Virus record (IMG/VR): IMGVR_UViG_3300030116_006646
Span: 1 to 33,284 of that record
DNA: 33,284 bases
Source of the DNA: a virus
Strand: one strand, 5' to 3'
Of this stretch, positions 1-22,374 are shown piece by piece. Both the position numbers and the translations under genes were made by a program. The stretch's first letter is position 1. Every line of letters begins with the position of its first letter. The notes below the pieces were generated by a model. The model worked only from the letters and a program-made list of their open reading frames with translations. It was not told where the DNA came from and searched no databases.

Positions 1-34
1 GTTCAACATCAACTTTTTCAAAAGTCCAACTCAT
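1..34 (-). CDS. 5' end of an unidentified gene, cut by the window edge
   Basis: An ATG at 34-32 is preceded by an AGAGG ribosome site and overlaps the stop of the glycosyltransferase gene as ATGA. The first eleven codons read MSWTFEKVDVE and run off the left edge. The coupling makes this a real start and part of the same leftward operon. Eleven residues are too few to name the protein. By layout it could be another modification gene or the large terminase, which is missing from the window; both are guesses. Confidence 0.6.
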   Translation of the reverse strand, partial: MSWTFEKVDVE

Positions 35-879
35 AATTTTACCTCTTTTAAAACCATACCATAATTATTTACCCCAGTCGGTATTACTAAATTTTTTTTC
101 TTAATGGGAATATTTTTTTTAAAAACGCTATAGTCAACGAAATGATGCCACCGATTAAAACGCCACACAACTTTAGCAACGTCAGGGTGTTGCTCTTGCA
201 AGGATTTTGATTTGGCCATTACTCCATCCATATAGTCTAAATTATCGTTCTTATAGATTGAATCTGTATTTCCACCTTTTAATCGCATTGTAGTAGCTTT
301 CTCACTTAAAAAAGCGTTAAATTGCAAAGTACAATAACCAAGTTTTAGACATCTTATAGACAAATCTGTGTCCTCATTGTATTTTCCTCTCCAACGTAGG
401 TCCAGTCGATTGTCAATTAATATTGTAGAATAAATTCTAGTGTTAAATAAAAAAGGTGGATATTTTTCACTAGCTATACAAAACTTACAATAGTTAAATC
501 CACTTATCATGACGTTTTCGTAGCGATCCACAAAATCTTCCGCAGCTTTAAAGATTGCACCACTTTCAACAATGTTTTTAGCGTTACGATTTAATCTATA
601 AAAATCATAAATGTTATCATCTATGATCCAATGCTTTTTCGCACCAATGCTTATAGAGTGATCCCAAACCCAATTTCTTGCAGGGATTGAACCTTTACCT
701 AAATTTGAAAATGGTAAAGTATAAATCTTTTTAGGGTCAATTACTTTTGCATATTCATCGTATTCTTGTGGCTCTACAACGATATGATAAGGAACTCCCA
801 TTCTCTCAAGCGTTTTAGAAGTTAATCGACTTTCCCAACGCCCTTTGCTAATCACATATATAGGATGTTTAGGATTCAT
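31..879 (-). CDS. TET/GREB1-associated-type glycosyltransferase (TAGT family)
   Basis: A protein of about 282 residues with the layout of the TET-associated glycosyltransferase family: an N-terminal YVISKGRWESRLT block, then SIPARNWVW, then WIIDDNI (the DDN lies at residues 87-89 from this start and is the likely metal/nucleotide-sugar site). A C-terminal NEDTDLSIRCLKLG block is followed by EKATT and KGGNT. Known members are predicted to add sugars to oxidised or hypermodified DNA bases, in phages and in eukaryotes with TET/JBP genes. The ATG at 879 lies ten bases after AAGG, so it is preferred to the ATG at 888, where the spacing is one base. It overlaps both neighbours and sits downstream of an MT-A70 methylase. 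No TET/JBP or hydroxymethylase is visible, so the substrate is unknown. The family call is firm by motif; the DNA-base role is inferred. Confidence 0.8.
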   Translation of the reverse strand: MNPKHPIYVISKGRWESRLTSKTLERMGVPYHIVVEPQEYDEYAKVIDPKKIYTLPFSNLGKGSIPARNWVWDHSISIGAKKHWIIDDNIYDFYRLNRNAKNIVESGAIFKAAEDFVDRYENVMISGFNYCKFCIASEKYPPFLFNTRIYSTILIDNRLDLRWRGKYNEDTDLSIRCLKLGYCTLQFNAFLSEKATTMRLKGGNTDSIYKNDNLDYMDGVMAKSKSLQEQHPDVAKVVWRFNRWHHFVDYSVFKKNIPIKKKNLVIPTGVNNYGMVLKEVKL

Positions 880-1138
880 CTTTAACATACCTTTTATTAA
901 AATGGTTTTGGAATTTAAGTTTAGGATGCCAAATACTTTTTGTTTTATTATTTAGTTCTTGCCCTATTACTTTTGCAAAGTCTTGCAAATCTTCCTCACT
1001 TGCAAATCTTATTATTATTTTATGATAAGCCTCTTTTGTATATTGCTCAAACTCAGGCATACCATCCCACTCTTTTCGCCAATCCTCTTTTAATTCTTCT
1101 TGACCAAAAAGATTATTTTGTTTTTCTCTCTCACTCAT
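869..1138 (-). CDS. Conserved small phage protein next to TAGT
   Basis: 89 residues: an acidic, charged N-terminus, then WDGMPEFEQ, a compact alpha/beta-looking core (IIIRFASEEDLQDFAKVIG) and a basic KTKSIWHPK motif. I recall small phage proteins with this WxGMPE...IRF...FAxxxGQ...KTKSIWHPK layout near such glycosyltransferases and ParB-like genes, but know no function. Its start overlaps the MT-A70 stop by 8 bases, and its end overlaps the glycosyltransferase start, so the three are translated together. The basic Trp-containing end could bind nucleic acid (inference). Confidence 0.7.
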   Translation of the reverse strand: MSEREKQNNLFGQEELKEDWRKEWDGMPEFEQYTKEAYHKIIIRFASEEDLQDFAKVIGQELNNKTKSIWHPKLKFQNHFNKRYVKDES

Positions 1139-1676
1139 TTAGTTCATTTCCCCAGTGATCCCAACCTTTGTGTGTAAAATCTTGTCTAGCAAAAAGTTCA
1201 ATTCTTGAAATATCACCACATAATTCAACGATGCGATCTCTTACGCAATCAGGCTTTCTTGAGTGTTCTCTTATTTTATCAATGACGACTTGATGAACTT
1301 TATTAGAAATTCTTTTTGGCTTACCTTTAGTAGCAATCAAACATAACTCACTATTAGCTCTAGTCCAATAACCCAACCCCCAAAATAAACTATCTTTTAA
1401 TTTATTTTTTTTAATCCATGCAAAACCACAAGTTTTAAAATCAAAACCCCATGACTTAATTGTTTCTAAACCTTTGTCTAACATTGGGTAGATAACCCAC
1501 ATAAACAATATACAATCATCATCGCTTATAGATGTAATTGGAAGATTTTTAATATCTTCAAGACTCATTAAATCGTATTTAGGTGATTTAGCTCTACCTT
1601 TATTAGACCATGTTTTAAAATTCCAGGGTGGATCAGCGTAGATAATTTTATATTTTTTTTTTGGAAAATTAATCAT
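1131..1676 (-). CDS. MT-A70 family adenine N6-methyltransferase
   Basis: A 181-residue MT-A70-type methylase that would transfer a methyl group from S-adenosylmethionine to adenine N6, most likely in DNA for a phage enzyme. The catalytic DPPW motif is at residues 15-18. Other family landmarks are HSRKPD (138-143), RIELFAR (158-164) and GWDHWGNE (171-178), which are the expected C-terminal blocks. The length matches compact phage members with no separate target-recognition domain. AAGG lies upstream of the ATG, and the start overlaps the previous stop as ATGATTAA. It lies between a zinc-finger gene and the TAGT gene pair. It may protect phage DNA from restriction or mark it for its own nucleases; the target site is not visible. 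Confidence 0.9.
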   Translation of the reverse strand: MINFPKKKYKIIYADPPWNFKTWSNKGRAKSPKYDLMSLEDIKNLPITSISDDDCILFMWVIYPMLDKGLETIKSWGFDFKTCGFAWIKKNKLKDSLFWGLGYWTRANSELCLIATKGKPKRISNKVHQVVIDKIREHSRKPDCVRDRIVELCGDISRIELFARQDFTHKGWDHWGNELNE

Positions 1677-1866
1677 GTTTGTTAAACCTTAACTTTTCCA
1701 TCTCTTGTTTTAATTGTTCTAAAGTGAACCCTGTAGATTTTTGACAATAATGTTCGGCACAATAATCTCTACCTTGCTCAACCACATCGGCTTTTTTTTT
1801 GCATTTACAACAAAGCCTTTGGTCGCCATAAATATTAATCAAGTTTGGATCAATTCCATTTGCCAT
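1669..1866 (-). CDS. Small zinc-finger-like protein
   Basis: 65 residues with Cys at 19, 20 and 22 (CCKC) and a second cluster C36, H39, C41 (CAEHYC), spaced as in a small treble-clef or zinc-ribbon fold. The C-terminus is a charged helix (EQLKQEMEKL). It overlaps the nuclease-like gene before it by 17 bases and the methylase after it by 8. It could be a DNA-binding accessory protein of the modification cassette (inference); the family is not recognised. Confidence 0.65.
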   Translation of the reverse strand: MANGIDPNLINIYGDQRLCCKCKKKADVVEQGRDYCAEHYCQKSTGFTLEQLKQEMEKLRFNKHD

Positions 1867-2356
1867 CTTGTAAAATTTCTATTGGGGTTAAAATATCTTT
1901 AGGGATGTAATGACACTTTGGTCGCCCATTACCTAAATCAGTTAAATATTTATTTGTTCCTAAAACATGGCTTGAATTGATAAAGCCACAAATTTCGTAA
2001 ATAGGTGATTTATCTATTACTAAAATATAAATTTCGTTGGGCTTCGCACCTTTAGGCCTAATAATTAAACCATTATTTTCTTTTGGCATTTGACAACGAA
2101 TTTGTAAATGCAAGTCATGATAAATTAAATCAGGGTTGTTGCCATGATTAACATGGTAAGTAAATTCTATTTGTAATAATTTTGAACAAGCTAACTCTGC
2201 TCCACTACCACTTATTGATCTAGCAATTTTTTCGTTTAATGAACTTTTATATCCATGACCCCACTCTTGATTTAATCGCATTGACTCAAATACTCTAGTC
2301 AAGCCATTATTAGCACTAGCCATTAATTCATATAAATCTAGTTTAACTTGTTTCAT
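1850..2356 (-). CDS. PD-(D/E)XK nuclease-like protein, possibly inactive
   Basis: 168 residues. A glycine-rich helix with SGAELACSKLL (E54), then PDLIYHDLHLQIR, in which D76 and the Q85-I-R87 strand fall where a PD-(D/E)XK nuclease has D and E-x-K. A strand/helix end (YILVIDKSPIYEICGFI) follows, typical of small phage restriction-like nucleases. The Q and R at the E-x-K position make catalysis doubtful; it may be a DNA-binding relic or a divergent variant. The distant fold call is inference. It lies two bases downstream of the HNH gene. Confidence 0.5.
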   Translation of the reverse strand: MKQVKLDLYELMASANNGLTRVFESMRLNQEWGHGYKSSLNEKIARSISGSGAELACSKLLQIEFTYHVNHGNNPDLIYHDLHLQIRCQMPKENNGLIIRPKGAKPNEIYILVIDKSPIYEICGFINSSHVLGTNKYLTDLGNGRPKCHYIPKDILTPIEILQDGKWN

Positions 2357-2357
2357 A

Positions 2358-3035
2358 TTATATTAACAATTTATTTCCTTTTTTTAAATTTTGTTTAGCT
2401 GTTAAATATTGAAGATTATTTTCAACATGAAAACCACAAACAATAGGATTATTTAATGGAACAATGTGATCTACATGATAACCTTTAGGACAATTTTTAT
2501 AAATTTCTTTTATTTTTTCTAAATTACACCATTTTGGTATAGCTCTTAATTTGATTGCTCTCCTCTTATTCATTCTTGCTTTCATTAAAGCAATTGCCTC
2601 TGGCCTTTTAAAATATTCTTTTCTATAATTAGATAATTTTTCTTTGCCACCTCTTTTATAATAATATTTTTTAAAATATCTTAACCTTGCCTCTTTCCCT
2701 TTTTGTGTAAGACGATAATTATTATCCCAAACTTTTCTTGCTAAATTTCTTTTTTTTTGCCAAATTGGATTTTCTCTATATTTTTGTTCTCTTATTTTTC
2801 TTAATTCTTTACCTTTTTTTGTTTGAGCATACTTTTTACTACAAGCTTTTCGCTTACTTGATCTATTATAAATATAATTAGATAATTTAGCTTTATCAGT
2901 TTGTCTATAAACTTTTCTACAACAAGCTTTTGAACAAAATCTAACTTTTTTATTTTTACCCTTTAACTTGATTTCTTTGTTACAATGTTCACAATTTTTT
3001 ACATCTATTCCAAAATATTTTTGTTTTTGTTTCAT
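2358..3035 (-). CDS. HNH endonuclease with N-terminal zinc knuckles
   Basis: 225 residues from the ATG at 3035, which overlaps the previous stop as ATGA; an upstream TTG at 3065 is less likely. The N-terminus holds CEHC and FCSKACCRK, a Zn-binding pair. A long Lys/Arg/Tyr-rich region of repeated K-x-x-R-x-Y helices follows (about residues 50-160), typical of DNA-contacting arms in phage HNH proteins. The C-terminal HNH core reads YHVDHIVPLNNP (H187, D189, H190) and continues HVENNLQYLTAKQNLKKGNK. It would cut DNA with a divalent metal. It could be a homing-type endonuclease or part of the adjacent modification cassette. Confidence 0.85.
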   Translation of the reverse strand: MKQKQKYFGIDVKNCEHCNKEIKLKGKNKKVRFCSKACCRKVYRQTDKAKLSNYIYNRSSKRKACSKKYAQTKKGKELRKIREQKYRENPIWQKKRNLARKVWDNNYRLTQKGKEARLRYFKKYYYKRGGKEKLSNYRKEYFKRPEAIALMKARMNKRRAIKLRAIPKWCNLEKIKEIYKNCPKGYHVDHIVPLNNPIVCGFHVENNLQYLTAKQNLKKGNKLLI

Positions 3036-3262
3036 AACAACCAATTTCCTTTTTCGTCTTGGCAATAAGAAGCAATAATTGGTTTATTGTTGTAAATATA
3101 AAATCCCCATAACTCACCATTACCATCTTTAAATTTTGGGTTGTCATACCAAGTGGCTTTGCTTTCATAAGCATCATCACAATTAGTAAAATTTTCTATT
3201 AAAATTTTTTCATAAGTTAAATTAGGGCTAGTTAATAAAACTAAAATTAAAAAAGATTTCAT
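3032..3262 (-). CDS. Small secreted protein
   Basis: 76 residues with a clear N-terminal signal peptide (MKSFLILVLLTSPNLTY) and a mature part containing two cysteines (C28, C67) that could pair in the periplasm. The YDNPKFKDGNGELWGFYIY stretch looks like a small beta protein. Coupled on both sides by ATGA overlaps. Function unknown; a periplasmic role such as superinfection exclusion or envelope modulation is only a guess. Confidence 0.65.
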   Translation of the reverse strand: MKSFLILVLLTSPNLTYEKILIENFTNCDDAYESKATWYDNPKFKDGNGELWGFYIYNNKPIIASYCQDEKGNWLL

Positions 3263-3579
3263 TTTGATAAATTTTTTTTTATAAAGGTTATTAGTTTAGG
3301 ATTTTGTAAAAATACTTTGCAAAACTCACTACCAATAAAAGTTGCGACCCCTTCCTCACCTAAATTTTTTAAACGAATCGCTGACTTGTCGGCAATAAAA
3401 TGAGCTATTTCATGTAGTAAAGTGTCAACATAAGAAATTTTTCCTAAATTTTCTTGTATTGCTATGGTAGATTCGTTTGGGTTGTAATACCCATAAATCA
3501 TATCTTTTTTGGCTTGTTTTTTAGATAATTTTACAATTTTAGCTTTAAAATTACGATATTTTATCTCTTTAAGACTCAT
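3259..3579 (-). CDS. Small zinc metallopeptidase-like protein (HEIAH motif)
   Basis: 106 residues from the ATG at 3579. The open frame extends to 3642, but only with a TTG start and an unlikely hydrophobic leader; an ATG at 3603 is also possible. TLLHEIAHFI at residues 53-62 is an HExxH zincin site, and GEEGVAT about 15 residues later offers a third ligand (E75 or E76), as in ImmA/IrrE and SprT-like small peptidases. It is the first gene of the leftward cassette and divergent from the recombination operon. Given the two regulators in this phage, it may act on a repressor like ImmA (inference). No helix-turn-helix is fused to it. Confidence 0.65.
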   Translation of the reverse strand: MSLKEIKYRNFKAKIVKLSKKQAKKDMIYGYYNPNESTIAIQENLGKISYVDTLLHEIAHFIADKSAIRLKNLGEEGVATFIGSEFCKVFLQNPKLITFIKKNLSK

Positions 3580-3599
3580 AATTGATAATATTCTTATAA

Positions 3600-3684
3600 C
3601 CATAATATGAATAGTTTCAATATTTAAAAAAAAGATATACAAAAAGATTGCAATTTCTTATAAAAAAATTATACCTTAATTATA
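3600..3684. promoter_or_regulatory. Divergent promoter region between the left cassette and the recombination operon
   Basis: A roughly 100-base A+T-rich gap between divergent genes. On the plus strand TTGCAA (3648-3653) is followed 16 bases later by TATACC (3670-3675), a plausible sigma70 pair that would place the mRNA start almost at the ATG at 3684, giving a leaderless or very short-leader message. On the minus strand a TATAAT lies at 3673-3668 with no good -35. No operator palindrome is obvious. Confidence 0.4.
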
Positions 3685-6728: not shown

Positions 6729-7109
6729 ATGAATAGACCATACAAAGCTTACAAAAAAACAGAAGAAGAAACTAGACTCAATAAAGAGATAGGAAAAAAA
6801 ATTAAAGAAGCAAGATTAAATCATGTTGTTATGTATGAAGTTGAACAAGACATGAATGGAGAAAGTTTTATTGTAAAACAAGCTAGAAAAAAATTAGTTA
6901 CACAAAGCGAATTATCTAAACAAATCGGCGTAACTTTCCAACAAATCCAAAAGTATGAAAAAGGACAAAATGGAATTAGTTCTACTAAGCTTTTAAAAAT
7001 TAGTCGTTTTTTTAAAAAACCACTTGCTTATTTTGTAAGTGGTGCAAATGAATTGTTAGGTCAAGACGTTCCACCTAATAATAACCCAACAGCTCCCTCT
7101 TTAAATTAG
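6729..7109 (+). CDS. Cro/CI-type helix-turn-helix regulator
   Basis: 126 residues from the ATG at 6729, chosen because AAGGAGAGAGG sits just before it; a start at 6702 has none. The helix-turn-helix spans about residues 50-100: KLVTQSELSKQIGVTFQQIQ, then KYEKGQNGISSTKLLKISRF, closing with PLAYFVSG. This HTH_3 fold is the class of phage repressors and Cro proteins. A helix resembling the usual first helix (IGKKIKEARL, 21-30) is separated from the rest by about 25 extra residues. Last gene before the tandem terminators. It likely controls lysogeny; the operator is not identified. Confidence 0.8.
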   Translation: MNRPYKAYKKTEEETRLNKEIGKKIKEARLNHVVMYEVEQDMNGESFIVKQARKKLVTQSELSKQIGVTFQQIQKYEKGQNGISSTKLLKISRFFKKPLAYFVSGANELLGQDVPPNNNPTAPSLN

Positions 7110-7159
7110 AGTCAATGGGTAACTATAAAAGTGAGTGTCAATAAAATGTGAAAACAACT

Positions 7160-7195
7160 GATAAGTGCTTTGTAACCACTTATCTTTTATTTTGT
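7160..7195 (+). terminator. Terminator hairpin 1 after the plus operon
   Basis: A perfect 8-bp stem GATAAGTG/CACTTATC with a 9-base loop, followed by TTTTATTTTG. The first of two stem-loops ending the plus-strand operon. Confidence 0.65.
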
Positions 7196-7206
7196 TGTGT
7201 ATGAGA

Positions 7207-7234
7207 GGGGGAGAGAAATCTCCCCCTTTTTTTT
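7207..7234 (+). terminator. Strong rho-independent terminator 2
   Basis: Stem GGGGGAGA/TCTCCCCC (8 bp) closed by a GAAA (GNRA) tetraloop and followed by eight T. A textbook intrinsic terminator, very GC-rich against its surroundings. The next small gene starts right after the T run. Confidence 0.9.
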
Positions 7235-7405
7235 ATGTATTTTGTAATTTGGAAACCTAAAGATAAATTTACTCTTTACTCAAACACCATATTTGCTTTA
7301 GAAAAAGAAGCTAGAGAATTTGCTAAAAAAAGTATTAAACGAAAAATAGAATGGGATGTAGTTCTCTATAATAGTGAGAACTACGATAAGTATTGGTACA
7401 AATAA
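7235..7405 (+). CDS. Unknown 56-aa protein directly after the terminator
   Basis: ATG immediately after the terminator T run, reading MYFVIWKPKDKFTLY and ending YDKYWYK. Aromatic- and charge-rich, with a plausible beta-beta-alpha pattern (YFVIW, FTLYS, then an EKEAREFAKKSI helix). There is no ribosome site other than the GGGGGAGA in the terminator stem, so expression may depend on read-through or be leaderless. No family recognised. It could be spurious, though its composition is protein-like. Confidence 0.5.
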   Translation: MYFVIWKPKDKFTLYSNTIFALEKEAREFAKKSIKRKIEWDVVLYNSENYDKYWYK

Positions 7406-7460
7406 TTAATTATTAATTAAATAATAACTAAGTGCTACTAACTCTATAATAATAATAGCT

Positions 7461-7628
7461 TCAATCATTTTTATTAATATGCTTAATTGCATCTTTCTCA
7501 TTTATAAAAAATTTTTTAGTAAATAGCTCTTTATTTACATTATTTATAAATACACTTAATTTATATTTTTTAACTCTTTTACTTCCATGATTAACTCTAT
7601 AAACGTATAGATCATTTTTTGTTGTCAT
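7461..7628 (-). CDS. Unknown 55-aa protein, last of the integrase operon
   Basis: ATG at 7628 with AGAGG just upstream (inside the previous gene, 17-base overlap). It reads MTTKNDLYVYRVNHG and ends INEKDAIKHINKND. The pattern of two strands followed by a helix resembles small AP2/Arm-type domains or the 56-aa protein encoded at 7235 on the other strand. No function assigned. Confidence 0.65.
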   Translation of the reverse strand: MTTKNDLYVYRVNHGSKRVKKYKLSVFINNVNKELFTKKFFINEKDAIKHINKND

Positions 7629-7881
7629 GTTCCTCTCCCTTTTTTTTTATAAAATGTTCATATTTTAAGTAGCTATTTTGTTTAGCTAAATTTTTAATTT
7701 TAATATTTACTTCTTGTTTTAAAGTTTTTGCATTATTGTAAATTTCAAACAATAATTTAGCTTGTTCATCTATTTTATGAATATCTTCATAATAAGATGT
7801 ATTTAAAAGTTTAATTTTAAATTTATGTATTAATTCAAGAAGTTTATTAAACTTAATGCTATTTCTTGTTTTTTTAATCAT
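7612..7881 (-). CDS. Unknown helical protein in the integrase operon
   Basis: 89 residues from the ATG at 7881; the frame runs on to a TTG at 7908, but the ATGATTAA overlap with the upstream stop favours 7881. Lys/Asn/Leu-rich and mostly helical (KLLELIHKFKIKLL, EQAKLLFEIYNNAKTLKQ), likely coiled coil. Not recognised. The position after integrase would suit a directionality or lysogeny accessory, but no winged helix is visible. Confidence 0.55.
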   Translation of the reverse strand: MIKKTRNSIKFNKLLELIHKFKIKLLNTSYYEDIHKIDEQAKLLFEIYNNAKTLKQEVNIKIKNLAKQNSYLKYEHFIKKKGEEHDNKK

Positions 7882-8083
7882 TTTTTTTATTGGTTGTAGG
7901 TTGTTCAATTATGTGATCTGAGTGCAAAATACCTCTATGTATATAATCTCTACCAGATCCTTTGTTCGGTGGAATATTTTTTCCACAAAGCCTACCCCCC
8001 TTACAAGCTTTAGTATATTCTCCTTGCACATCTATATTTTTTTTAGCCAACGCTTCTGCTACTGCTTTTGCTATTATATCCAT
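7874..8083 (-). CDS. Unknown small protein downstream of integrase
   Basis: 69 residues with the strong ribosome site GGAGAGAG before the ATG. A short N-terminal helix (IIAKAVAEALAKKNIDVQ) is followed by a Gly/Cys/Lys/His-rich part with CKGGRLCG and HRGILHSDHIIEQ that may bind metal or nucleic acid. Ten bases after integrase in transcription order. Possibly an excisionase-type or regulatory protein (inference only). Confidence 0.6.
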   Translation of the reverse strand: MDIIAKAVAEALAKKNIDVQGEYTKACKGGRLCGKNIPPNKGSGRDYIHRGILHSDHIIEQPTTNKKND

Positions 8084-8093
8084 ATCTCTCTCC

Positions 8094-9260
8094 TTATTTC
8101 CAATTAAAGTGTTTGTTTTGATAATCTACGTTTTCAACTTCTTTCTCACTCTTGAGATATAAAGCTATGTAGTTATCTTGGACAAAATCTATTGACTTAT
8201 CTCCAAGTGCTTTGGCTAAGTCGATAGCGTTTTTGTATTTAGACGTATAAGCCCAAAAACTAGCCGTATAATGCCTAAAGAAGTAACCTTTACGCTTAAT
8301 TGGTAGCGTAAGGTCTAATTTCTTTAAACTCTTGTCTATGCCTCTAATAATGGCTTCTAGGCGTATAGGTGAGTTAGTTTTATCTAAAAATAGATAATTC
8401 TGGTCCTTTGGCAAGGTTTTGACATATTTGTTAATTTCATCCCTTAGATCGTTAGAAATTACTAATTGTCTAAAACCATTATCAGTTTTTGGATCACCTA
8501 TTTTTTTAGTACCACTCTTAACTGATTTATTAATATCAATAATTGGTGGTAAATTAGAACTAGCATTAAAGTTTAGCAAGTCATCTAGGGTTAAGCATCT
8601 AGCCTCACTTGGCCTTAATGCACACTCTAAAAGGATTTTGCATATTAATTTAACTTCGTATCTTGGAATATTATGGATAATCTTTTTTATTAAATCCATG
8701 TTCCAATATTCAAAATCAATACGTTCTGGTTTTGTTCTACTAGTAACAACCATAGTCATCCAATTAGCATCTTTGCAAATATTACGTTTTATTTTTCTAT
8801 TTGGTGGATCAACTTGGTTTTGTAGAATAGCTGATAAAGTATTAAATATTTTTCTAATAGTTTTAGCTTTTAAATCATTATTAAATAGTTTGTCGGTTAA
8901 GTATTTGACAAAACCATTAATCTCTTGCTCACCTATTTTTCTAATATCTACATTATTAAAGTATGGCAAAATGTGATTAGTGTAAAAACTACCATAATCT
9001 TTTGCATGGCCAACCTCAATAACACCCTCTCTAATCTTATATTTAAGTCTTTTGTAAAAAGATTCATAAGCTTCATTTAAAGTTATTTCTTGTGAGTCAA
9101 ACTTAGTAAAGCCTACTTCTTGTATTTTTTCTTCAGCTTTTTCCTTACAATCTTTGTAAGTGTTTTTAGTTATAGATTTTGGTTTTGTATCATTACCAAT
9201 GTATTTCCATCTAAATCTTCTTTTACCATTTAGATAAACAGGTCTTATATTTAGTTCCAT
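8094..9260 (-). CDS. int: Tyrosine recombinase integrase
   Basis: 388 residues, full length for a phage integrase: an N-terminal arm-type region (MELNIRPVYLNGKRRFRWKY), a SAM-like core-binding domain (about 60-165) and a catalytic domain. Catalytic residues: R216 in CALRPSEARCL, a probable Lys in GDPKTDNGFR, R329 in YFFRHYTAS, and nucleophile Y364 in DNYIAL. The box II histidine of the usual HxxR is a Tyr (Y326), and the usual H/W before the nucleophile is D354 (LGDKS). It would insert the phage into the host chromosome. AAGGAG precedes the ATG. It shows that the phage is temperate. Confidence 0.92.
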   Translation of the reverse strand: MELNIRPVYLNGKRRFRWKYIGNDTKPKSITKNTYKDCKEKAEEKIQEVGFTKFDSQEITLNEAYESFYKRLKYKIREGVIEVGHAKDYGSFYTNHILPYFNNVDIRKIGEQEINGFVKYLTDKLFNNDLKAKTIRKIFNTLSAILQNQVDPPNRKIKRNICKDANWMTMVVTSRTKPERIDFEYWNMDLIKKIIHNIPRYEVKLICKILLECALRPSEARCLTLDDLLNFNASSNLPPIIDINKSVKSGTKKIGDPKTDNGFRQLVISNDLRDEINKYVKTLPKDQNYLFLDKTNSPIRLEAIIRGIDKSLKKLDLTLPIKRKGYFFRHYTASFWAYTSKYKNAIDLAKALGDKSIDFVQDNYIALYLKSEKEVENVDYQNKHFNWK

Positions 9261-19832: not shown

Positions 19833-21152
19833 TTATTCGTTTAACCCCTTTGTTGATAAAGCAGTATATCCTGTTGGTACATCATATTCAAATATTCCAT
19901 TACCACTTGCGTTAGTTCCTGCACTAGATACTGCTGTTGTTCCGAAATAACCATTGCCGAAGTTTGCATTACAATAATTGGAATGTGTTGTAGCATCTCC
20001 CCATGCAAAGAAATAAGTTCCAGCAGTTATTGTTATCGCTCCTGTGCTTGTAGTTGGGTCAGCACTATTTTGCCATGTTCCATTTTTACTAAAAAATAAT
20101 CTGTTATTATCTAAATCCATAGCTACACCAATAATATCATTTTGTGTCCAAGTATTCCCACTCCATGAAATATTAGAATTATTATTTCTTACATATCCTG
20201 TATTATCATAATAACCCCAAGAAGTAGATGTGCTTCCTAATTGAGCAGACGCAGATGTTGTTGGAGATTGTGTAATACCTACAAGTTGTCTATAAGGTGT
20301 AGCAGAGCCACCATTGTGTTTCAATTCAAAATAATATTTACCAGAAGATGCTGCTAAAGTTGATGTGTTCCAAGTTTCAATACTAGAACCACCACTATCT
20401 AAACCAGTATTACCAGAACCAAATGTTGAACTAGCATAATAATTATCTAAAGGATTCCATGTAGCAAAAACATTACTTGGATTATCTTCTGTTTTTGTAA
20501 GTGTACCACTAGAAAGTGTTAAGTTATTAGTATTTGGAGATTGATCTGTTAAAGAATTACCATCTTTTAAAATAAAGAAACCATTTGTTCCATAAGATAC
20601 ACTTGGAGAAGTTTTTATTTTCCATTCACCAGTTGTACTATCTGTTTCGCCAAAGTCTGATGCAGAATAAGCATAATTATCACAAAAATGAACATGAGAA
20701 AGAGAGCCATCAAAATAATTTCCACTAGCACCATTATTTCCTATTGCAGTGTAAGTTGTATAATTAATTAAACTTTCTCTACCAGATGTTGGATTTATTC
20801 TTGTACTAAAAGAAGTTTCTTCAACCCCATTAACCCAAATTTTCATTCTATCGTCTGCTGTAGAGTTATTAGTATCCCATCTACAAACAATGTGATACCA
20901 AGCATTTACATCTCTAAACACTCTACTAGTAATTAAATTTCCCATATTAGTATAACTTCCAGCTTGAAAGCTACCCCATGATAATTTACCATCTGTATGA
21001 AAAGCTATTTTGTCTTTGTTGCTACTATCAAGATGAGATCCAACTACACAATTTTCGTTTGACAAGTTACTTCTTTTAACCCAAAAACTAATTGTCCATT
21101 TTGTTCTTGTTCCACTTGAAGTTGTTGATACTGATAATTTTGTACTAGCCAT
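19833..21152 (-). CDS. Tail adhesin with LamG and SPRY domains
   Basis: 439 residues. The first half (TKWTISFWVKRSNLSN, MKIWVNGVEETSF, YTAIGNNGASGNYFDG) is a concanavalin-like LamG lectin fold. The second half (WNTSTLAASSGKYYFELK, QLVGITQ, WGYYDNTGYVR, DIIGVAMDLDNNRLFFSKNG) is a clear SPRY domain. Both bind carbohydrate or protein and suit receptor recognition. SPRY is best known from eukaryotes but recurs in marine phage fibres. TAATG junction with the upstream gene. Confidence 0.8.
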   Translation of the reverse strand: MASTKLSVSTTSSGTRTKWTISFWVKRSNLSNENCVVGSHLDSSNKDKIAFHTDGKLSWGSFQAGSYTNMGNLITSRVFRDVNAWYHIVCRWDTNNSTADDRMKIWVNGVEETSFSTRINPTSGRESLINYTTYTAIGNNGASGNYFDGSLSHVHFCDNYAYSASDFGETDSTTGEWKIKTSPSVSYGTNGFFILKDGNSLTDQSPNTNNLTLSSGTLTKTEDNPSNVFATWNPLDNYYASSTFGSGNTGLDSGGSSIETWNTSTLAASSGKYYFELKHNGGSATPYRQLVGITQSPTTSASAQLGSTSTSWGYYDNTGYVRNNNSNISWSGNTWTQNDIIGVAMDLDNNRLFFSKNGTWQNSADPTTSTGAITITAGTYFFAWGDATTHSNYCNANFGNGYFGTTAVSSAGTNASGNGIFEYDVPTGYTALSTKGLNE

Positions 21153-22033
21153 TAGTTAAATTGTCCTCCACCTGTTGCACCGAAGCTAGATGTTAAGCTA
21201 AATGCTCTATCAACTGTTTGATTTTCAGCATCGGTTATTCTTAATGTAAAATTGTATAAAGTTGGTGTAGTTGAAGTTCCACCAAAATCAGTTGTTGTTA
21301 TTGCACCTGTTGAACTATTTAATGAACAATTAGCCCCAGATGATGCAGTTAATACATTTCCACCTGATGTAACTTCACTAAATGTTATTGCACTATCAGA
21401 TGATCCTGCAACTGTCGCAACTGTACCACTAAAATTTCCTGCAATCGTTCCAAGAGAACCTGCAGCTGTTGAAAAACTTGGCGCAGTAGAAGCTGTTATA
21501 ATATTGTTTGTTGATCTACCAGCTAGACCATTTGGATTTTCAACTCTAACATAATAGTTACCTGATGCTAAAGTTACATTAACTGATAATGTTGTAGCAT
21601 TAGTAAATGAAACTGTGTTTGCATTTGTTATAGCCCCAGTTGAGCCATTAACAAATTGTACTTGTGGTATAGAAACAAATCCTGTCCCTGTAATACTTAT
21701 CGTTGTAGCTGTAGCTGGTGCAATTGTTTGAGATACATTGGCCACTGTTGGTTTTGTTTCTACAGCGTCTATCCAAGATAATTGATTTGTATTATTTCCA
21801 TTAGTAGCAAGTACCTGTCCATTTGTTCCTACATTTTGTGGTAAAATTAAATTATAAGACTGCCCTGCTGAATGTGGTGGTGCTTGTATAGACACCCCAT
21901 GACTGTTTTGACTACAATTCAATGTTAGTTTCGCATCAGCACTAGAGCCATCACCCTTAATTTTTAATACAGGGTTTTCTATTGTGCTAGTAGTTCCTGA
22001 AACTATATTTCCAAGATTCCTTGCTTTAGACAT
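21152..22033 (-). CDS. Fibre protein with IPT and Ig-like domains
   Basis: 293 residues. N-terminal beta domain (KARNLGNIVSGTTSTIENP) seen in many phage fibre anchors, an IPT/TIG-like domain (PTVANVSQTIAPATATTISI, NYYVRVENPNGLAG), and an Ig/cadherin-like domain at the C-terminus (TGAITTTDFGGTSTTPTLYN, FTLRITDAENQ). Suits a tail fibre stalk or accessory adhesin. Confidence 0.7.
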   Translation of the reverse strand: MSKARNLGNIVSGTTSTIENPVLKIKGDGSSADAKLTLNCSQNSHGVSIQAPPHSAGQSYNLILPQNVGTNGQVLATNGNNTNQLSWIDAVETKPTVANVSQTIAPATATTISITGTGFVSIPQVQFVNGSTGAITNANTVSFTNATTLSVNVTLASGNYYVRVENPNGLAGRSTNNIITASTAPSFSTAAGSLGTIAGNFSGTVATVAGSSDSAITFSEVTSGGNVLTASSGANCSLNSSTGAITTTDFGGTSTTPTLYNFTLRITDAENQTVDRAFSLTSSFGATGGGQFN

Positions 22034-22066
22034 TATTTAATTTTCCTTTATTATTTTGAATTTTGT

Positions 22067-22094
22067 TATGGCTAGATATTTCTACCTAGCCATA
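22067..22094. other. Stem-loop between fibre genes
   Basis: Perfect 9-bp stem TATGGCTAG/CTAGCCATA, loop of 10 bases, in the 65-base gap between the 91-aa and IPT-domain genes. No T run follows on the message strand. A candidate mRNA processing or stability element. Confidence 0.5.
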
Positions 22095-22098
22095 TAAT

Positions 22099-22374
22099 TT
22101 ACAATACAATCGTATTAGCTTCTTCTTCAGTTAATGCTTCACCTGAAATAAGTTTAGCTTTTGCACTAGCTTTAAGATTTGCTTGTGCAGTAGCTTCATC
22201 TTCTTCAGATGGTAACTCTGCAACTTTAGCATCAATAGTAGCCATATCAATTGGTGTCATATCTTTCCAATCAATAGTAATTACACCATCTGCATCACAT
22301 CTAAGTTCAACATCAGGAGCAACACCATTATTTAATGATGTTAATGCTTTTCCATATTGTTCTATTTTTGACAT
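22099..22374 (-). CDS. Small fibre-locus protein, possible fibre assembly factor
   Basis: 91 residues, acidic, helical at the C-terminus: ANLKASAKAKLISGEALTEE, then EANTIVL, an ending I recognise from small phage proteins near fibre genes. The middle has DADGVITIDWKDMTPID. AAGGAG precedes the start. Possibly a fibre chaperone or a host-range accessory. Confidence 0.6.
   Translation of the reverse strand: MSKIEQYGKALTSLNNGVAPDVELRCDADGVITIDWKDMTPIDMATIDAKVAELPSEEDEATAQANLKASAKAKLISGEALTEEEANTIVL

Follow-up and report, generated by a model that had tools for sequence, protein, structure and literature searches.

A predicted two-part glycosyltransferase, WxGMPE-TAGT, in a pelagiphage-like genome and its relatives

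Glycosyltransferases of the TAGT family are already known, as are the activity of the T6 enzyme and the existence of solitary TAGTs (PMC13216743, PMC13390438). The T6 TAGT puts a second sugar on glucosyl-hydroxymethylcytosine (glucosyl-hmC) (PMC13216743), and relatives of known function, T6 TAGT among them, act on DNA (PMC13216743, PMC13390438). Phages that carry a TAGT and no known partner account for 288 of 753 phage genomes (PMC13216743). In this study, we analysed IMG/VR record IMGVR_UViG_3300030116_006646, a linear record of 33,284 bases from a marine phage (the window), in which a TAGT gene belongs to a run of genes at 31-3035, all on the minus strand and reading toward the left edge. 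The original prediction had treated seven genes of this run as one coupled cassette. Judged by gene content across relatives, the conserved unit is instead the TAGT together with the small upstream protein that we call WxGMPE, after a motif within it. We think it probable, if only just, that WxGMPE-TAGT is one two-part enzyme that glycosylates phage DNA.

Relatives were fetched with TAGT, WxGMPE and two fused forms as queries, the best 80 loci being kept per scan, and TAGT copies less than 90% identical to each other were taken as non-redundant (n=140). WxGMPE is encoded directly upstream of TAGT for 108 of these copies, in the same open reading frame (ORF) for 19 and one gene off for 10. Of the three copies that fit none of these arrangements, two are TET-type TAGTs (Nonlabens phage P12024L and a relative) and the third is a second copy on L050, whose contig ends there. 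The reciprocal scan gave the same picture: 79 of the best 80 WxGMPE loci have a TAGT that is either adjacent or one gene downstream, and the remaining locus ends at its contig edge. The split genes overlap by exactly 11 nucleotides, in the GATGAATCCTAA form, in 82 of 107 non-redundant split pairs scored, and the true start of the window TAGT is likely the ATG at 879, which gives this same overlap. WxGMPE and TAGT are one protein in Aeh1, phage 65, PTm1, Kuja, POP12, Vibrio 1.124.O and Vibrio 1.076.O. On a quick tree, the fused or split state switches about 14 times by parsimony, and well-supported branches force at least 7 of these changes; the gene pair is common to very diverse phages. What the comparison shows is a single conserved unit that is frequently one polypeptide, has a GT-A fold and keeps its motifs intact. 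Comparing the gene neighbourhoods of TAGT homologues, as had been suggested, revealed a near-constant partner in WxGMPE and no constant methylase or nuclease. What the cassette view overlooked was WxGMPE as the near-constant, often fused partner of TAGT, and a ParB-type domain as a recurrent third component.

Some loci carry additional or unmarked copies. A second, divergent TAGT-like glycosyltransferase lies beside WxGMPE-TAGT at L063:7668-8522 (25.9 bits, just below the PF20691 cut-off) and at L312:2516-3385, and L063 also has two tandem WxGMPE-TAGT pairs. In the record of Vibrio phage henriette 12B8 (L172; NC_021073.1, ~21000-22250), the WxGMPE and TAGT ORFs are open and unannotated.

The window protein at 31-888 was correctly predicted to be a TAGT-family GT-A glycosyltransferase. 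It matches PF20691 at 1e-40 (140.3 bits against a curated cut-off of 27.5) and phrog_842 at 2e-43, and it keeps the DDN and NED motifs. Among non-redundant TAGT homologues, DDN is present in 137 of 137 and YNED[T/S] in 130 of 137, and the DDN and NED motifs are also kept in T6 and TET-type TAGTs. By sequence, TAGT has no match in the PDB. A fused homologue was modelled as a GT-A fold, so that structure prediction agrees with the assignment; its nearest solved folds are Chlorella virus hyaluronan synthase (Z 13.7) and ppGalNAcT-2 (Z 13.5), and they also include the protein glycosyltransferases POMGnT1 and COLGALT1.

WxGMPE has the consensus W..MPEF.Q....Y..I.VRF...ED...FAKLI.Q..T.KTKSIW.P....KRY.DES, in which conservation reaches 99-100% at the W, the M, the P and the final P and 93% at the E of MPE. 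This E is unlikely to be catalytic, since it is replaced in Aeh1 (MPRY) and POP12 (MPHF). Searches against Pfam, NCBIfam and PDB sequences gave no significant match to WxGMPE, and PHROG gave weak matches only, to families of unknown function. The AlphaFold model of WxGMPE alone is weak (predicted template modelling score, pTM, 0.46), and Foldseek found no chain with it. For the natural fusion L215, mean pLDDT (predicted local distance difference test) is 92.4 and pTM 0.90, with WxGMPE residues 11-50 at 92-97. That the domain is modelled poorly alone and confidently in the fusion suggests that WxGMPE is a part of the enzyme in need of its partner.

Several relatives add a ParB-type domain. The whole-fusion profile is too little conserved for a genome scan, and a TAGT-only profile was used on bacterial genomes. 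About half of the loci on bacterial contigs encode WxGMPE as the C-terminal portion of a longer protein, typically ~230 residues in length, and a ParB N-terminal domain (ParB_N) is seen in several of these proteins and in four viral ones. ParB_N-WxGMPE exceeds the Pfam cut-off in L058 (9.4e-11) and L325 (5.2e-6) and falls just below it in L331 and L317; the other viral cases were recognised by eye. At the DNA level, the ParB part of L331 (Erwinia) is ~70% identical to the prophage ParB gene YnaK of E. coli. In those prophages the ParB gene overlaps a TAGT gene of a second type (PF20691, 1.1e-35), at a position two genes upstream of the one for the small terminase subunit. A ParB/TAGT pair, in each case with an overlap of 11 nucleotides, also occurs in Lactobacillus phage phi jlb1 and halovirus HHTV-2. 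At 80% or more of its length, this sister pair occurs in 885 of 5,426 complete E. coli genomes (~one in six), strain W included, where PGAP names the TAGTs 'hypothetical' or 'GREB1-related'. A plasmid search with the Erwinia TAGT returned no homologue. In the record of laboratory strain W, ParB-X occupies 1517571-1518359 and TAGT 1518352-1519284. Two sister ParB/TAGT examples are:

L347:5066-6785, E. coli STEC308
L352:6001-7714, E. coli W

On a beta-proteobacterial contig, L317:2219-4288 encodes a ParB-like domain, WxGMPE and TAGT in a single chain of 690 residues. In Pelagibacter phage HTVC112P (MN698246.1, ~6988-8498), a TET/JBP-like protein adjoins a ParB-like gene and an FkbM-type methyltransferase, which is a further link of ParB to DNA-modifying genes, in a SAR11 phage.

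The left end of the window is arranged as follows.

31-888, minus strand: TAGT-type GT-A glycosyltransferase, putative catalytic subunit (PF20691, phrog_842, motifs, fold of a fused relative)
869-1138, minus strand: WxGMPE protein, the split N-terminal domain and near-constant TAGT partner (sequence, pairing counts)
869-879, minus strand: WxGMPE/TAGT overlap of 11 nucleotides, GATGAATCCTAA-type (WxGMPE C-terminus DES-stop over TAGT start MNP)
1131-1676, minus strand: MT-A70 family N6-adenine DNA methylase, accessory, of a pelagiphage-like group (PF05063, phrog_359)
1669-1866, minus strand: small Cys-rich zinc-ribbon-like protein, group-specific (Cys/His pattern CCKCKKKADVVEQGRDYCAEH)
1850-2356, minus strand: possible PD-(D/E)XK-like protein, group-specific (motif only, NPDLIYHDLHLQIR)
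2358-3035, minus strand: HNH/endonuclease VII-like gene, an insertion private to the window genome (HVDHIVPL...NNLQYL..QNLKKG; phrog_1035)
1-34, minus strand: start of a helix-turn-helix gene cut by the left edge (MSWTFEKVDVE..., whole in relatives)

The coupling of these genes is real for six of the seven. Overlaps measure 17 nucleotides between the PD-(D/E)XK-like and zinc-ribbon-like genes, 8 between the latter and MT-A70, 8 between MT-A70 and WxGMPE, 11 between WxGMPE and TAGT, and 4 between TAGT and the cut gene (ATGA at 34-31); the HNH and PD-(D/E)XK-like genes abut by 1 nucleotide. The HNH gene is an insertion that lies outside the cassette. The genes flanking it overlap by 4 nucleotides in each of the 12 relatives where the junction can be read, none with an HNH gene there, and they are 676 nucleotides apart in the window only; the junction comparison therefore leaves six coupled genes and one inserted HNH gene, and rules out HNH as a cassette member. 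The protein matches phrog_1035 (endonuclease VII) at 9.7e-5 and nothing in Pfam, and the gene is probably a free-standing homing endonuclease.

The MT-A70 call is confirmed by a profile match over 1131-1676 (PF05063, 5e-29, 102 bits; phrog_359, 5.5e-82) and a DPPW motif, and an MT-A70 gene stands beside TAGT in 6 of 137 non-redundant loci, the others having unrelated methylases or none. WxGMPE, the zinc-ribbon-like protein and HNH can be recognised in the sequence as had been claimed, and the PD-(D/E)XK call is only suggestive. Neither the zinc-ribbon-like protein (1669-1866) nor the PD-(D/E)XK-like protein (1850-2356) matches a Pfam family; the latter matches phrog_18407, of unknown function, at 3.1e-11. 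Each has homologues in 16 loci, all within the pelagiphage-like group, and both are represented in Pelagibacter phage HTVC106P, where the zinc-ribbon-like homologue shows 58% identity across 45 residues and TAGT has no match. Besides WxGMPE and TAGT themselves, the most frequent gene family near the pair reaches no more than 17 of 137 loci. Several unrelated kinds of methylase adjoin WxGMPE-TAGT (class-I S-adenosylmethionine (SAM)-dependent, N6/N4 DNA methylases, MT-A70), none of them generally, and other neighbours include RusA and further replication and recombination genes. In nine non-redundant loci, a class-I SAM methyltransferase of ~270 residues lies between WxGMPE and TAGT or, mostly, abuts TAGT; it could act on the sugar, methylating it. 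Examples of this methyltransferase are:

L107:4302-5102
L016:2479-3288
L152:4207-4998
L219:1488-2261
L269:2356-3201

Elsewhere in the window, the structural genes match SU10-type portal, adaptor and capsid families in the Pfam scan, the portal being 62.5% identical to that of HTVC106P, and an integrase gene lies at 8094-9260. Adjoining the cassette, at 3259-3642, is a small M78/IrrE-like metallopeptidase-type gene that scores below the Pfam cut-off.

One suggestion had been that an acceptor-making enzyme lies immediately beyond the left edge of the window. The gene cut there encodes a helix-turn-helix protein (HTH_36, PF13730, ~2e-4, below the Pfam cut-off) that is complete in L002-L009 and L038. 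The TAGT of L038 is 99% identical to that of the window over the 192 residues present, and L038 and L009 both continue from TAGT through the helix-turn-helix gene, small genes and the small and large terminases to the portal; L002 continues past TAGT through the helix-turn-helix gene and small genes. The order from helix-turn-helix gene to terminase to portal is likewise found in HTVC106P. A Pfam scan of 67 ORFs, from the window and the missing stretch as read in relatives, hit 34 families, and the 25 ranked highest include neither TET nor a hydroxymethylase nor a nucleotide kinase. Since relatives read through without such an enzyme, the left-edge option is closed for close relatives, and the reported absence of TET/JBP and of a base hydroxymethylase holds for the window and for this stretch.

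The search was extended to 29 larger phage records with WxGMPE-TAGT, between 28 and 334 kb in length. None of the 29 contains TET (control P12024L, 2.8e-29), a thymidylate-synthase-family gene (PF00303), a C5-cytosine methylase (PF00145) or a T4-type alpha-glycosyltransferase (PF11440; T6 control, 1e-260); thymidylate-synthase-family genes are present in large T4-like reference phages. Neither TET nor thymidylate synthase was found in phi jlb1 or HHTV-2. The beta-glycosyltransferase family PF09198 is not among the families shown in the window Pfam scan, and no search was aimed at it. Because many of the records are fragments, single absences mean little and repeated absence means more. A new modification chemistry, offered as one option among several, is strengthened by these results.

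We propose that WxGMPE and TAGT would be two chains of one GT-A glycosyltransferase, in which WxGMPE may recognise the acceptor and pack against the catalytic domain. Through its DDN/NED active site, TAGT would move a sugar from a host nucleotide sugar onto the phage's own DNA, and DNA modified in this way would presumably resist restriction. The ParB-type domain of relatives may have been added for loading or movement on DNA, and MT-A70 and the other nearby methylases would be separate, exchangeable protective modifiers. DNA is favoured as the target because of the ParB fusions and overlaps, the neighbouring DNA methylase, RusA and replication and recombination genes, and the relatives that act on DNA. 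Since these phages have no known base pre-hydroxylating enzymes, the acceptor would be either an unmodified DNA group or a hydroxyl from an unrecognised or host enzyme. Tentatively, and as a narrower and rather less probable claim, the sugar may go directly on an unmodified group, such as N4 of cytosine or N6 of adenine, with no prior hydroxylation and with WxGMPE or ParB delivering the base.

Several observations weigh against DNA glycosylation by this enzyme. Among solved structures, those nearest in fold are polysaccharide and protein glycosyltransferases, and the acceptor cannot be read from a GT-A fold. The window and most phage loci are without ParB: an N-terminal extension of more than 90 residues was found in 5 of 137 loci, and in one of these it does not resemble ParB. 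With most records being fragments, a gene for making the acceptor might be located outside some of them, and because the best 80 loci were kept per scan the pairing rates hold for the nearer part of the family. The principal competing explanation, which we regard as unlikely though deserving of attention, is a GREB1-like protein glycosyltransferase, with WxGMPE or the ParB-type domain presenting a host or phage protein to TAGT; its purpose might then be to disable a host function or to mark a virion protein, with the same limited likelihood. The presence of ppGalNAcT-2, POMGnT1 and COLGALT1 among the nearest folds would fit such an enzyme, as would the failure to find acceptor-base enzymes and the PGAP name 'GREB1-related' in the E. 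coli sister group, given that GREB1 is reported to O-GlcNAcylate protein (PMC12645433). However, the ParB-type fusion and coupling and the replication and recombination neighbourhood point to nucleic acid, and known members of the family act on DNA (PMC13216743).

An explanation by familiar chemistry, to which we give a similarly low probability, is that TAGT acts on a base hydroxylated by an unrecognised phage oxygenase or a host enzyme. Every genome has many small ORFs of unknown function in which a hydroxylase could be hidden, and in both T6 and P12024L the TAGT is coupled to that phage's hydroxylating enzyme. It is harder to reconcile with the 67-ORF scan, in which the 25 best-ranked of 34 families include no oxygenase or hydroxymethylase, with the lack of any recurrent neighbour beyond the limit of 17 of 137 loci, and with the absence of C5-methylases from the 29 records, hence of phage-made 5-methylcytosine for a host TET-like enzyme. 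That MT-A70 makes a methyl- or hydroxymethyl-adenine acceptor for TAGT, a route also raised in the original prediction, is very improbable. In its favour, MT-A70 overlaps WxGMPE by 8 nucleotides in the window and has homologues close to TAGT in 15 related loci; against it, MT-A70 is near TAGT in only 6 of the 137 non-redundant loci, and methylation alone does not supply a hydroxyl. Least credible of all is a restriction-type cassette whose nucleases tell modified from unmodified DNA, so that self could be discriminated from non-self. The close same-strand packing and the overlaps would suit it; against this, nucleases are not kept together with modification genes, the HNH gene being private and the zinc-finger- and PD-(D/E)XK-like genes present in the TAGT-less HTVC106P and absent from most TAGT loci. 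PADLOC hits in the window comprise methylase models plus others that are weak, and no complete system was seen among them.

Taken together, solitary TAGTs gain a partner, WxGMPE, which has no library entry and, in almost every member sampled, is encoded with TAGT or fused to it. In partial coverage of the literature, we found no description of WxGMPE, its TAGT fusion or overlap, the ParB-type extension or the E. coli counterpart, and nothing on ParB with a glycosyltransferase, on YnaK or on pelagiphage glycosyltransferases. If the sugar does go directly on an unmodified base, around one sixth of E. coli genomes would have a sister form of the enzyme at work, and the distribution of the sister pair, strain W included, makes the substrate question testable in E. 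coli.

The window belongs to neither of the described TAGT pathways. With no TET/JBP oxygenase in the 29 records or in the window and its relatives' left stretch, it does not fall within the TET and TAGT system, and with PF00303 and PF11440 each in 0 of 29 records it does not fall within the T-even glucosyl-hmC pathway. The T6 beta-glucosyl-HMC-alpha-glucosyltransferase resembles the window protein in its PF20691 family, its DD and ED motifs and its overlapping upstream partner gene. In T6, however, that partner is a thymidylate-synthase-family deoxycytidine monophosphate hydroxymethylase (gp42), overlapped by TAGT, there is no WxGMPE, and the TAGT scores only 38 bits to PF20691 and lies beyond the reach of tblastn with the window protein as query. 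The TET-associated TAGT of P12024L likewise shares PF20691, the same catalytic motifs and a coupled upstream partner, but the partner is a TET/JBP oxygenase, WxGMPE is lacking, and identity to the window TAGT is 28.6% over 61% of it; a TET-type TAGT query in IMG/VR yielded only 3 loci, hence a small contrast set. The glycosyltransferase domain of GREB1 is a putative relative of TAGT, and GREB1 gives its name to the PGAP label of the E. coli sister proteins. GREB1 differs in being eukaryotic and is reported to act on protein (PMC12645433). The pair of E. coli prophages, phi jlb1 and HHTV-2 has PF20691 (2e-30 to 1e-35), an overlapping upstream partner and TAGTs that share the GG-T, KS and R-HH motifs with that of the window; the partner there is ParB with another C-terminal domain and not WxGMPE, and the sister TAGTs align with part of the window TAGT at ~24-27% identity. 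RefSeq uses the name 'beta-glucosyl-HMC-alpha-glucosyltransferase' for the TAGTs of Aeh1, PTm1, Kuja, phage 65, HHTV-2 and phi jlb1, a label carried over from the T-even enzyme that is unlikely to fit genomes unable to make hmC, such as phi jlb1 and HHTV-2, and an Aeh1 glucosyl transferase has been entered as modifying an unknown base, citing Iyer 2013 (PMC8056088). Aeh1, phage 65, Kuja, POP12 and PTm1 belong to the same clade as the window, with TAGT identities of 47-49% and WxGMPE present, and differ from it in carrying WxGMPE and TAGT in one polypeptide.

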